Source of the DNA: Gemmatimonadaceae bacterium
Lineage (GTDB): Bacteria; Gemmatimonadota; Gemmatimonadetes; Gemmatimonadales; Gemmatimonadaceae
Reading direction: 5' to 3'
DNA length: 18,455 nucleotides
NCBI GenBank assembly: GCA_025357975.1
Contig: JANYKY010000368.1
Span: 1-18,455, forward strand
Shown: positions 6,777-18,455 of the stretch, piece after piece
Layout of the letters: each line of letters begins with the position of its first letter
Position numbering within the stretch: the first letter of the stretch is position 1
The notes under the pieces: model-generated
What the model saw: only the letters and a program-made list of their open reading frames with translations
Told to the model about the DNA's origin: nothing
The model's database searches: none
Position numbers and translations under genes: made by a program

Positions 6777-9674
6777 ATGCAGGAACGCAGCATAAACGCA
6801 GCGCAAATCGAAAAAATCAAGTCAGTTTTCGAGCAAGCGTGCGTTCTCGGAGAACCGGAGCGCCACACGTATTTGCGCGAAGTCTCTGCTGGCGATTCGG
6901 CCCTCGAGGCCGAGCTGCATTCCCTGCTCACCGCGCATGATGCTTCGGGAGATTTTTTCGAGAAGTTGTCGCAGGATCTGATTGGTCCCGCATTGTCTGC
7001 GCTCGAGCTCAGCGAACGGGACGCGGTCACAGATGCCGACGGCAAGATCCTGCACTACGAGATTCTCGAAAGAATTGGTGTCGGCGGAATGGGGGTTGTG
7101 TATAAGGCTCGTGATACGCGGCTCGCCCGAATCGTCGCGCTAAAGTTTCTTCCGCGACGAGATGAATCAAATCCGGCGGCTCAGGCTCGCCTGCTGGCCG
7201 AAGCACGTGCAGCATCGGCGCTCGACCACCCGAATATCGGAGTGGTCTACGACATCGCCGAGGCACCCAATGGCCGACAGTTCATGGCTATGGCGTGGTA
7301 CGATGGACAGACCCTGCGCGAGAAATCACGGCGCGGTCCAATGCCAGTCGACGAGACAATCGCAGTCGGCATCCAACTGGCGAGCGCCCTTGCCGCGGCG
7401 CACGGCGCAGGAATCATACACCGCGATGTAAAGCCGGCAAACGTCATCATCACGCAATCAGGCACGGCGAAGCTTCTCGATTTCGGAATTGCGAAACTGA
7501 TGGGAGCGCATGAGCGTGAGATGCTTCTCACGGCCGGCACAGTCGCCTACATGAGTCCTGAGCAAACTCGGCACGAACCGCTTGACGCACGCTCCGACAT
7601 CTGGAGCGTGGGTGTTTTGCTATACGAGATTCTCGCCGTGCAACGACCGTTTCAGGGGGAGACTGACGAAGAGATAATAGCTGCGATCAGGACTGACGAG
7701 CCTGCGCCACTTCATGTTCTCCGGCCGGACGTTCCGCGTGCATTGGCTGATGTCATCCACTGTTGTCTCAAGAAGGAGGCCCGCGACCGTTACAGCTCTG
7801 CAAGTGAATTGCTCGCCGCATTGAGAGAATCCGAAAAGAATCTGGTCTCTTCGTCGCCCCGTAACGCAGCTGCTGGACCACTGCCTCGCTTCTTTTCAGG
7901 ACTGACGCTCTCAATGACAGCCGGTGCGTTGCTCGTTGCTGGCCTCATTTTGTGGAGCTATTCGCGTTATCGGGAGATCAATGGTCGCCCCGCAAGCCCG
8001 GCTCAGGCGCGCCCCGTCTCGATCGCCGTGATGTCTTTCAACGGGTTACAACCTTTAGACAGCCAATCCTATCTGGGCCGCGTGCTCGCGGAAGAGCTGC
8101 GCAACAAGCTTTCACGCTACAGAAATATCGCGGTGTCGGGCTACCTGTCCTCGTCTTCTTACACAGATCTCGAAACTGCCCTGCCCCGTTTGAAAGGCGA
8201 GCTGGGAGCACAGTACGCGATAGCCGGTAAAATAGAAAAGTCACCGGCAAATCAACTTCATCTTGAAATCGTTGACGCCACGACCCGGCGCGAATTGTGG
8301 TCTGGACGCTATCCGCTGGCGTCAGCGCAGCTGGCGATCCTCGTGCCTAACGCAACAAAACAGATTCTTTCCACGCTGAACATCACAACCTCTGCTGCGG
8401 AGGCTGCGCGAACCACCATGGCGGAAACGTCCAATCCCATTGCTTACCAGCTTTATCTCCGGGGAAGAGACGTCGAGCTGGCCGCCATGCCGAAAAACGT
8501 CCTCGATCAGCCGCCACAGGAATCTGTACGTCGCGCACAGGCATTTTACGCTCAGGCACGAGCACTCGATCCTTCGTTCGCTCTCAATCGCGCAAAGCTT
8601 GGCATGAGTCATATGAAGAGCGCGGCGGTGTATGACAATACGCGGGCGAGACTCGAGCAGGCGCGACTTGAGGCGGAAACGGCGCTGCGTCTCGATTCCG
8701 GGCTCGTCGACGCGCACGAGACGCTCGCCGAATACCTGAGCCAGACTGGAAACACGCCTGCTGCCATTGTGGATCTCGAACATGCACTTCAAAAGGTGCC
8801 CCACAATGTGAATCTCATAGTGGCACTCGGCTTCACGTATCGGCTTGGGGGTCGTTCCGAGGATGCAATCGAGCAGTTCCATCTCGCACAGAAACTTGAC
8901 CCTCGCAATCCATTTCCTTTCTGGTATGCCGCGTGGACCTATGGCAGCATGCGCCGGCAAGATCTGGGTTCCCTTGAATTCAGCCGGCTGATAGCCATTT
9001 CCCCTGAGGATTACGAAATGCGCATCATCAAGGGACAATCGTATCTGAGATGGAAAGGAACGGCGGACACTTTGTTGGCTCAGACTGCCGCGATTCCCCC
9101 GACGTGGGACCAGCGCGGAATGGCGACCTTTGGCAGGTACACCGCGCTGATGGTGCAGCGTCGATATCGCGATGGATTGCAAATGCTGGATCGTTCGCGA
9201 TCCGACCTTAGTACCGATGGCTTTGTCTACAGCCCGAATGCGCTAATGCGCGGGGATATGTTGCGGGGCCTCGGGCAACGCAACCCGGCTCGAGCAGAAT
9301 ACTCGAAGGCGGTCGCGCAACTGCGAGACAGCCTCGCGGCGCATCCGAATCAGCCGGAGATCCACGCGGCGCTTGGACTCGCCTACGCAGATCTCGGCAA
9401 CCGCCAGCGGGCTATCAAGGAATCTGAAAAAGCCATGAGTCTGGCTCCTCTTGCGACGACCGGGCCACTGGCTACCGCCGTCATGGGAATCGCCGTGCAG
9501 GCTTTCGGACTGGTTGGAGAGGGGGACCGCGCCTTCCAGATGATCGAGTTGATGCTTTCCATGCCCTCAGGACGCGAAATAAGCGTTCCGTTTCTCAAGG
9601 TCTGGCCGGGCTTCGATCCGTTACGCAACGATCCCCGCTTCAATCAGATGCTGGAACGATTCACCATCAAGTGA
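6777..9674 (+). CDS. Transmembrane Ser/Thr protein kinase with TolB-like domain and TPR repeats
   Basis: 965 residues; ATG with AGGAG 4 bases upstream. Residues 10-70 form the helical leader common to these kinases (IEKIKSVFEQAC...). The kinase domain spans about 94-350. It has the glycine loop GVGGMGVVY, Lys123 in ALKFL, a C-helix Glu in RLLAEA, HRDVKPAN with Asp217, DFG with Asp235, MSPEQ in place of APE, and DARSDIWSVGVLLYEIL. All catalytic residues are present, so it should be active. A membrane helix lies at about 374-393. The outer part starts with a TolB/FlgO-like alpha-beta domain (PVSIAVMSF to LSTLNI, about 413-535) and then TPR helices to the end, for example VDAHETLAEYLSQTGNTPAA and AALGLAYADLGNRQRAIKES. 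The architecture implies a sensor or scaffold outside the membrane and phosphorylation in the cytoplasm; targets are unknown. Such kinases commonly neighbour ECF sigma genes of the kind found 44 bases downstream, here broken. Confidence 0.95.
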   Translation: MQERSINAAQIEKIKSVFEQACVLGEPERHTYLREVSAGDSALEAELHSLLTAHDASGDFFEKLSQDLIGPALSALELSERDAVTDADGKILHYEILERIGVGGMGVVYKARDTRLARIVALKFLPRRDESNPAAQARLLAEARAASALDHPNIGVVYDIAEAPNGRQFMAMAWYDGQTLREKSRRGPMPVDETIAVGIQLASALAAAHGAGIIHRDVKPANVIITQSGTAKLLDFGIAKLMGAHEREMLLTAGTVAYMSPEQTRHEPLDARSDIWSVGVLLYEILAVQRPFQGETDEEIIAAIRTDEPAPLHVLRPDVPRALADVIHCCLKKEARDRYSSASELLAALRESEKNLVSSSPRNAAAGPLPRFFSGLTLSMTAGALLVAGLILWSYSRYREINGRPASPAQARPVSIAVMSFNGLQPLDSQSYLGRVLAEELRNKLSRYRNIAVSGYLSSSSYTDLETALPRLKGELGAQYAIAGKIEKSPANQLHLEIVDATTRRELWSGRYPLASAQLAILVPNATKQILSTLNITTSAAEAARTTMAETSNPIAYQLYLRGRDVELAAMPKNVLDQPPQESVRRAQAFYAQARALDPSFALNRAKLGMSHMKSAAVYDNTRARLEQARLEAETALRLDSGLVDAHETLAEYLSQTGNTPAAIVDLEHALQKVPHNVNLIVALGFTYRLGGRSEDAIEQFHLAQKLDPRNPFPFWYAAWTYGSMRRQDLGSLEFSRLIAISPEDYEMRIIKGQSYLRWKGTADTLLAQTAAIPPTWDQRGMATFGRYTALMVQRRYRDGLQMLDRSRSDLSTDGFVYSPNALMRGDMLRGLGQRNPARAEYSKAVAQLRDSLAAHPNQPEIHAALGLAYADLGNRQRAIKESEKAMSLAPLATTGPLATAVMGIAVQAFGLVGEGDRAFQMIELMLSMPSGREISVPFLKVWPGFDPLRNDPRFNQMLERFTIK

Positions 9675-9718: not shown

Positions 9719-10148
9719 GTGAGCAACGACCGCATCTTTTTGCGGGATGAAGCAGCGTTCAATCGGTGGACCAACGCGAGCGGACGAGCGTTCGTGAGCG
9801 ACGATGAACCAGCAGGAACTGTGACGAGCCTCTTTGCAGACCTCGAGCGAGGCGATCGTCGCGCACTGGAACAAATCTTTCCCATTGTATACGAGGAGCT
9901 CCGCTTGCTTGCCCGCCGCCAGCGCAGGAACTGGAATGGCGATACGACAATGGGCACCACGGCCCTCGTCCACGAGGCCTATCTCAAGCTTGTGGACGCC
10001 GATGCGGCCAGCGTCGTGGAGTGTCGTTTTTTTTGGCGGATTGTCTATCGAGGAGACGGCCGAAGCCCTCTCCATATCGCCGGCCACAGTAAAGCGCGAT
10101 TGGAACCTCGCGAGGGCGTGGCTTTTCCGAGAGATGAAGCCAGCCTGA
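9719..10148 (+). pseudogene. Broken ECF sigma factor (internal deletion plus frameshift in a T-run)
   Basis: The start reads [31 protein letters not shown] and then [19 protein letters not shown], the sigma-2 N-terminal part of the ECF subfamily often paired with Ser/Thr kinases. It jumps directly, in frame, to VVECRFF, which belongs to sigma-4. In intact members about 80 residues (HFFAVAARAMR, DHARRR and the linker) lie between; they contain the -10 recognition surface. In the T8 run at about 10027-10034 the frame then breaks. With seven T the frame would continue [39 protein letters not shown], a complete sigma-4.2 end, to the TGA at 10146-10148. The T-run shift could be a sequencing error; the missing block could not. 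The GTG at 9719 was taken as start; another GTG lies at 9794. It cannot make a working sigma factor. Confidence 0.9.
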
Positions 10149-16590: not shown

Positions 16591-17376
16591 TCAGGCGGCA
16601 CTCACCGCTTGTTGAGGGTTTTTGCTCTCTTCCCGCGTCAGATGTATGACGAGGATGACAATAATTACGAGAAAGACTGCACTGACAGGAATCGTGCCGA
16701 GCGCAAGGCCGCCATTTGCCTTGTCCTGGGTGAGGAGGTCACCAACCGATGCACCCAGTGGCCGCGTGAGGATGTACGCAAGCCAGAACGTGAGCACTCC
16801 ATTCGCACCCATGCGATATGCCGCGAAGATTATTGCGATCGCAGCAGCGAACATCAACGCAGACAACGGATAGCCAAGCCCAAGGCGTTCGGACAACAAA
16901 TCACCGGCCGATGTTCCAAGTGAAAATGTGAACAGAATCGCGGCCCAATAGAAAAGCTCTCGACGCACGGTGTAGATGGTATGCACAGAAAGCGTCTTCT
17001 CAACGGCGTACCAGGCGATGAAAACAATCGCCAGCGCGATCCCGAAAATGATCGATGTCGTAATGAGACTAACGCCCATGTTATCCACGAGATTGTCGGA
17101 AATCAGCGTGCCCACTACGCTGATGAAGACAACCACGATCCAATACACTACCGGCACATATTTCTTTGTACGGAACTGAACAAAGAGAGCAAGCACGAGC
17201 AGGGCAGCCATCACCCACGACGTCACGACAAGGCCGAGGCCGAGAGTGTCAGACAGCAGGTCTGCAGCGGTCTCCCCGACGGTCGTCGCCATGATCTTGA
17301 TTATCCAGAAGACCAGTGTCACTTCCGGAACCTTGTTGAACATCGAGCGCGCGCTCAAATCGCTGCTGGCTCCCAC
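16591..17376 (-). CDS. DUF347 (COG4705) four-repeat membrane protein
   Basis: 261 residues. The start is a GTG at 17376 with CAGGA six bases upstream; an ATG at 17343 (MFNKVPEVT) is an alternative. The protein is almost entirely membrane helices arranged as four related repeats. Each begins with an aromatic-Trp pair (FW24, YW79, YW144, FW198) and contains a Gly-x4-Asp box: GETAAD (34-39), GTLISD (89-94), GTSAGD (154-159), GASVGD (208-213). This is the four-repeat pattern described for DUF347. The charge pattern of one Asp per repeat in the membrane suggests a channel or transporter for a cation, but that is inference. The gene lies 78 bases downstream of an ECF42-type sigma gene in the same direction and is translationally coupled to the PAP2 gene. 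The function of the family is not known to me. Confidence 0.9.
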   Translation of the reverse strand: MGASSDLSARSMFNKVPEVTLVFWIIKIMATTVGETAADLLSDTLGLGLVVTSWVMAALLVLALFVQFRTKKYVPVVYWIVVVFISVVGTLISDNLVDNMGVSLITTSIIFGIALAIVFIAWYAVEKTLSVHTIYTVRRELFYWAAILFTFSLGTSAGDLLSERLGLGYPLSALMFAAAIAIIFAAYRMGANGVLTFWLAYILTRPLGASVGDLLTQDKANGGLALGTIPVSAVFLVIIVILVIHLTREESKNPQQAVSAA

Positions 17377-17454: not shown

Positions 17455-18455
17455 TCAGGAAACAGCCGCTGAACCGAGCGAGTCAGCTTTCTTTTTCAGC
17501 AGCTGTCGCTCTCGAGAATTGCGCGTGAGTGAGCCGGCCAGCTCGAGCTCGACACGCGCTTCATCAAATCGTCCGAGCTTTGCCAGCAGATCACCGCGCA
17601 CGCTCGGCAGAAGATGATATTCCCGCAAAGAGCCGTCTGCGACAAGCCTGTCGACCAGTGCGAGACCCGCCGCAGGCCCGAACGCCATCGCATGCGCAAC
17701 AGCGCGATTCAATTCGACAACCGGGGAGGGGGTCACCCGAGCAAGGGTGTCATACAGCGCCGCAATACGATTCCAGTCAGTCTCGTCACCACTCCGCGCG
17801 CTTGCGTGACACGCTGCAATTGATGCTTGCAATACATATGGCCCCGTATGATCCAGCTGAGCGGCCCGCTCGAGCGCTGAGAAACCGTGCTGAATCAGAA
17901 TTCGGTCCCACCTCGAGCGATCCTGATCGAGAAGCAGCACTGGAGCGCCAGAAAAGTCAACGCGCGCGCGTAGTCGCGATGCCTGAATTTCCATCAATGC
18001 GACAAGGCCATGCGCCTCCGCTTCACCTGGAGTGAGTGCCGCGAGGATGCGGCCCAGCCGCATTGCTTCTTCGCAGAGTGAAGGACGCAGCAAGTCATCG
18101 CCAGCAGTAGCCGAGTAGCCCTCATTGAAAATGAGATAGATGACCTGAAGCACTGAAGACAGCCGCGCAATGAACTCTTCTCCGCGGAACGCACGAGCTA
18201 TCTCATCGGTAGTCAGCCCGCCGAGCAAGCGCAGAGTGAGTGCGACGCGCGCCTCTTTCGGCAACACCGGATGACACGACATGAAGATCAGGCGAAGTAC
18301 ATCGTCTCCGATATAGTCGTCGATCGCTGCGTCGAGCTCGGCAACGGCTGAGTCCTGACGCACATCCTGTTCGTATCCGATTTCCGCGTGCTTGCGCACC
18401 TGCAGTTTGTCTCTGCGAACATTGTCGATCGCGCGTCGCTTTGCGACTGCCATTA
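17455..18455 (-). CDS. ECF42-type RNA polymerase sigma factor, 5' end outside window, apparent loss of sigma-4.2 helix
   Basis: The visible part starts with (L)MAVAKRRAIDNVRRDK, the end of sigma-2, and runs off the right edge; the ATG at 18453 is internal. FMSCHPVLPKEARVALTLRL and LGGLTTDEIARAF (residues 57-89) is sigma-4 up to the first helix. In ECF42 proteins about 28 residues follow (PTMAQRLVRAKR and the VP linker), forming the DNA-recognition helix. Here ARAF is joined in frame to RGEEFIARLSSVLQVIYLIF (residues 90-109), at about 18186/18187. The rest is the normal ECF42 C-terminal TPR-like domain (NEGYSATAGDDLLRPSLCEE, GLVALMEIQASRLRAR, ALYDTLARVTPSPVVELNRA). A family member without the recognition helix should not read -35 elements. 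The frame is otherwise intact. ECF42 genes often sit with a DGPF-domain (YCII-related) gene, which would lie outside the window. Confidence 0.9.
   Translation of the reverse strand, partial: MAVAKRRAIDNVRRDKLQVRKHAEIGYEQDVRQDSAVAELDAAIDDYIGDDVLRLIFMSCHPVLPKEARVALTLRLLGGLTTDEIARAFRGEEFIARLSSVLQVIYLIFNEGYSATAGDDLLRPSLCEEAMRLGRILAALTPGEAEAHGLVALMEIQASRLRARVDFSGAPVLLLDQDRSRWDRILIQHGFSALERAAQLDHTGPYVLQASIAACHASARSGDETDWNRIAALYDTLARVTPSPVVELNRAVAHAMAFGPAAGLALVDRLVADGSLREYHLLPSVRGDLLAKLGRFDEARVELELAGSLTRNSRERQLLKKKADSLGSAAVS

Follow-up and report, generated by a model that had tools for sequence, protein, structure and literature searches.

An ECF42-type sigma factor gene at a contig end

The window, i.e. 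the whole stretch of DNA that was analysed (18,455 nucleotides), is the complete contig C475, one of the 527 that make up a draft genome (bin G000) of 90.9% completeness. At its end it carries the 3′ part of an ECF42-type sigma factor gene on the minus strand, with an open reading frame that spans from the contig end to the stop codon. The following features were located in this part of the window:

17455..18455, minus strand: ECF42-type sigma factor gene, 3′ part (ORF 17455..18453, 332 aa; the 5′ end is cut by the contig end)
18406..18455, minus strand: 50 bp shared with the end of C246, another contig of this bin (49/50 identical)
18190..18288, minus strand: what is left of sigma region 4 (Pfam Sigma70_r4_2 model positions 3–35 of 54; alignment to SigK/SigH)
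18186..18187, minus strand: deletion junction, 84 bp or 28 codons absent between an F codon (18189–18187) and an R codon (18186–18184)
17860..18165, minus strand: DUF6596 domain (Pfam, residues 97–198, model positions 1–102 of 102, 126 bits)
17458..17859, minus strand: remaining TPR-like C-terminal part (helical; pLDDT mostly >90 in the model)

The predicted protein is collinear with ECF sigma homologs along its whole readable length; the best homolog, P0001 (RNA polymerase sigma-70 factor, ECF subfamily), shows 75% identity in BLASTP and 80% in our alignment. Region 2, region 4 and DUF6596 form the layout of most homologs among the matches listed, and those of the listed matches that carry an organism name come from Gemmatimonadota, several of them from Gemmatimonadaceae; judged from these names, the draft genome probably belongs to the Gemmatimonadaceae. 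The ECF42 label is based on this domain layout, on an earlier sequence-only reading and on the description of ECF42 in a review (PMC8999054), where members such as Sven_0747 of S. venezuelae and ECF-10 of P. putida possess region 2, region 4 and a TPR-rich extension of ~200 residues. Shared layout and collinearity throughout bear out the ECF42-like identity proposed by that reading, and the full-length DUF6596 match agrees with its claim of a complete C-terminal domain. TPR models of Pfam match the window protein below cut-off only. Compared with the described ECF42 factors, the gene keeps region 2 (apparently on contig C246) and the DUF6596/TPR-like extension but is 28 residues short, so that a complete region 4 with the recognition helix of the helix-turn-helix (HTH) is not present. 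The Sigma70_r4_2 match stays below the Pfam cut-off (24.6 versus 25.7 bits), whereas the intact copy in the same-genus genome G011 is matched at model positions 4–54 of 54.

The single mismatch in the overlap between C246 and the window lies at position 18430 and is synonymous (GCG/GCA). Residues 4–79 of the homolog P0004 match C246:9911–10138 at 88%, and residues 64–152 match the window at 81%. This homology suggests that C246 holds the 5′ part of the gene at its end, where region 2 (core binding, −10 contacts) is matched, and the two contigs would then adjoin. As the contig end truncates the gene and the missing 5′ part is apparently found on C246, translation probably does not begin at the ATG at 18453. 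Because of the overlap mismatch, two haplotypes, or an error, meet <250 bp from the deletion, which is itself located ~270 bp from the contig end.

Downstream of the sigma gene we found a gene for a DUF347 protein with four matched repeats (16591–17376, minus strand). The ORF directly upstream, on C246 (9618–9893), contains a complete OmdA domain; it adjoins a patatin-like gene and, compared with longer relatives, may be shortened at its 5′ end. YCII/DGPF genes adjoining the sigma gene are a hallmark of the ECF42 family, and in G011 two YCII genes and a glyoxalase-like gene precede the intact copy. Here the flanks are OmdA upstream and DUF347 downstream, as far as the scanned part of the C246 ORFs is concerned. 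A literature search for ECF42 together with DGPF returned no paper. Elsewhere on C246 (7773–8612), an ORF on the minus strand with a weak, sub-cut-off TrkA_C match overlaps a plus-strand ORF that is histidine-kinase-like (HATPase), and by eye both seem to lack their N-terminal portions.

The missing segment and its expected effect

At the junction, the translated frame reads GGLTTDEIARAF followed immediately by RGEEFIARLSSVLQ, with EIARAF directly joined to RGEEF. Homologs carry at this point a segment that is mostly of the type L-V-P-E-P-T-I-A-Q-R-I-V-R-A-K-R-T-L...F-E-V-P. The 28 lost residues comprise the turn and the recognition helix of region 4.2 as well as the linker to the C-terminal domain; the first helix of the HTH is retained. 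In alignments with SigK and SigH the lost piece corresponds to the turn and second HTH helix of solved ECF factors, and in SigW this second helix (alpha9) is inserted into the major groove of the −35 element (PMC6713349). As the sequence-only reading had noted, the recognition helix is cleanly missing and the frame is kept; this is confirmed, and the junction lies inside the span which that reading had singled out (18150–18230).

In the AlphaFold model of the window protein the C-terminal helices are kept, mostly with high confidence. A helix at residues 82–88 is followed by one at 92–114, and helix 159–172 of the model of intact P0004 has no counterpart. Region 4 is of low confidence in both models, so that only the missing counterpart is considered here. 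The TPR-rich extension of ECF42 factors is reported to be essential; protein contacts are its predicted mode of action, with its proximal part contacting sigma-4 (PMC8999054). With recognition helix and linker removed, the product would be unable to read a −35 element and the extension would pack less well against sigma-4. Laboratory sigma constructs without region 4 would share this lack of −35 recognition, and de novo, promoter-independent initiation by a sigma-4-less holoenzyme is ineffective (PMC7948647). Unlike the constructs described there, the window protein loses no more than the linker and the second half of the HTH, and it continues into a TPR-like domain.

Using the DNA of relatives as a stand-in for the lost bases, we could see only 1–2 nt of microhomology at the junction by eye, so that an origin by simple slippage is not visible. 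Slippage between direct repeats was considered and rejected: an imperfect repeat (TTC-NNN-GTN-CCN) flanks the segment in relatives, but by eye the junction does not line up with this repeat.

Distribution of the short form and conservation of the remainder

Two homology searches were carried out, each of which scored ~8000 proteins and of which the best 120 were used. The 28-residue segment is present in all 120 homologs listed by the first search and, with 104 further ones from the second, in 224/224 listed homologs. The same spacing was read by script in 222 of these, and the remaining two (P0139 and P0208), which the script had misread, were checked by eye. Genomes of the same order gave a corresponding picture, as the segment was found in 25/25 script-readable loci out of 29 fetched; a spacing of 32 at two loci (L013 and L029) results solely from the pattern hitting a later motif. 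In the second of the two homology searches, which was confined to residues 68–112 around the junction (8000 proteins scored), the best match reached 64 bits and 59% identity over 45 residues, i.e. it ran through the gap; an ungapped short form would be expected to have topped this search.

We also scanned the DNA of 84,980 species genomes with a degenerate pattern for T-x-E-I-A-R/S-A-F-R/S-G at the junction. This yielded 9 matches, none of which (0/9) was in an ECF42-like frame by eye; the pattern does recover the site in the window, and the collection may omit the window's own or a near genome. Within the bin, P0004 found 8 places, with ECF42-like matches only on the window contig and C246. 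A plasmid search gave 250 records, all below 60% identity. In the titles and abstract openings of the literature searched, no ECF factor that naturally lacks the recognition helix was described.

The deletion is private among the relatives searched. Every listed homolog carries the segment, and no short form was seen among the 224 homologs, the 25 same-order loci or the genome scan. That reading had further held that related genomes containing the missing bases would count against a genuine deletion. All relatives checked do contain them, but they are not of the same species (the closest protein is ~80% identical), so that the deletion is private and an artefact is not thereby shown.

In order to judge the state of the remaining protein, we defined conserved positions as alignment columns with an agreement of at least 97% among the other non-redundant sequences. 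At 3/157 such positions the window protein differs, which places it tenth, with ties, among 68 non-redundant sequences (median 1 deviation, maximum 6). An old, decaying gene is not supported by these few changes. As the rest is undecayed, the loss is recent, or it is absent in the cell, or the short protein is still under selection.

The last case would correspond to a working ECF42 variant without −35 contact, in which a DNA-binding partner recruits the protein via the TPR-like domain or in which the protein serves as a decoy that regulates other sigma factors, or as an anti-sigma-like competitor for core polymerase. Such a variant would fit the kept frame, the respected module boundaries, the intact C-terminal domain and the conserved remainder, and it would draw on the protein contacts through which the extension, reported to be essential, is predicted to act (PMC8999054). 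However, a second example is absent from the listed homologs and from the genome scan, the partner predicted there for the extension, sigma-4, is partly removed, and a recent loss predicts a conserved remainder equally well. We regard a working variant as very improbable. Of the three options raised by the sequence-only reading it is the one that found no support, another short form not having been found, while a recent deletion and an artefact are both left standing.

Deletion allele or assembly fault

A second ECF sigma gene is located in the window at 9719–10145 on the plus strand (PF07638), adjoining a protein kinase ORF (6777–9674). PF07638 is matched there at model positions 3–79 of 185 and then, in the next frame, at 151–184 of 185; ~70 model positions are missing and a frameshift coincides with a run of eight T (10027–10034). 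Its paralog on contig C227 of the same genome is full length. This second gene is a pseudogene or an assembly fault, and together with the odd ORFs on C246 it raised the suspicion of a general deletion fault in the bin.

We therefore compared 42 contigs of the bin (9 of which read as N) in both directions with 1.18 Mb of G011, using simply called ORFs. Away from contig edges, 5/35 G011 proteins were covered to less than 80% in the bin, and 6/36 bin proteins were covered to less than 80% in G011. Regarding internal gaps of at least 10 aa, 2/48 G011 proteins lacked a segment in the bin, one being the ECF42 gene described here, and the reverse search added one further gene with 13 aa missing from the bin; conversely, 2/36 bin proteins had segments (4 in total) missing in G011. 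In this small sample there is no clear excess over G011, and the suspected general fault was not borne out. Among 20 ORFs compared with NCBIfam models, full-length matches were obtained for PheT, RNase Y, UvrC and GpsA; 4 of the 20 had no family, and the ORFs were chosen by length, which favours intact genes.

A local fault could still have produced the short form if strain variants were joined or trimmed, or a chimeric read was followed, near the contig end, in which case the gene of the organism would be intact. The contig ends inside the gene, haplotypes may collide in the mismatched 50-bp overlap with C246, the draft is split into many contigs, and the neighbouring ECF gene shows a deletion and a frameshift at its T run. 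It also agrees with an artefact that the short form occurs in no other protein or genome searched. Moreover, as 9/42 inspected bin contigs read as N, a short contig with the missing bases could have escaped view. On the other hand, the window contig is free of Ns, no long repeat of a kind that could lead an assembler to leave out 84 bp is apparent by eye in the DNA of relatives, and truncated or internally deleted genes are in no clear excess in the small comparison with G011. We consider an assembly or binning artefact a serious possibility, falling a little below even chances.

Even chances are what we give to an ordinary ECF42-type gene with a private, probably recent, in-frame 84-bp deletion that amounts to a loss-of-function allele. 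A recent deletion in the sigma gene of one strain would have left region 2, with its contacts to core RNA polymerase and the −10 element, and the TPR-like C-terminal extension, while the linker and, in region 4.2, the turn and recognition helix would be lost and the −35 element would go unread. The product would have no activity or, at most, compete idly for core polymerase. From several lines of evidence we infer that cells carry the deletion, that it arose recently and that it abolishes function: the segment is present in all listed homologs and all readable same-order loci, with no short form among the scan matches; the rest of the protein shows no long decay; and internal losses of at least 10 aa are few in the bin. 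In addition, the lost part aligns with the helix in the −35 groove (PMC6713349), and holoenzyme without sigma-4 is ineffective in de novo, promoter-independent initiation (PMC7948647). Loss of an ECF factor is plausible in this genome, as the second ECF gene in the window is also broken.

Three observations speak against the deletion allele. The deletion is close to a contig end at which one base disagrees with the adjoining contig; the reading frame survives and the break falls between structural modules, as would be expected of a random null allele in about a third of cases or fewer; and the scant microhomology offers no simple slippage origin. The private deletion allele and the assembly fault are close rivals.

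The locus calls for caution, as a striking domain loss was seen once, beside the end of a draft contig and not far from another damaged sigma gene. If the short form were real and active, a single-chain ECF factor would work without −35 contact, which would help to explain the role of the extension in the ECF42 family.
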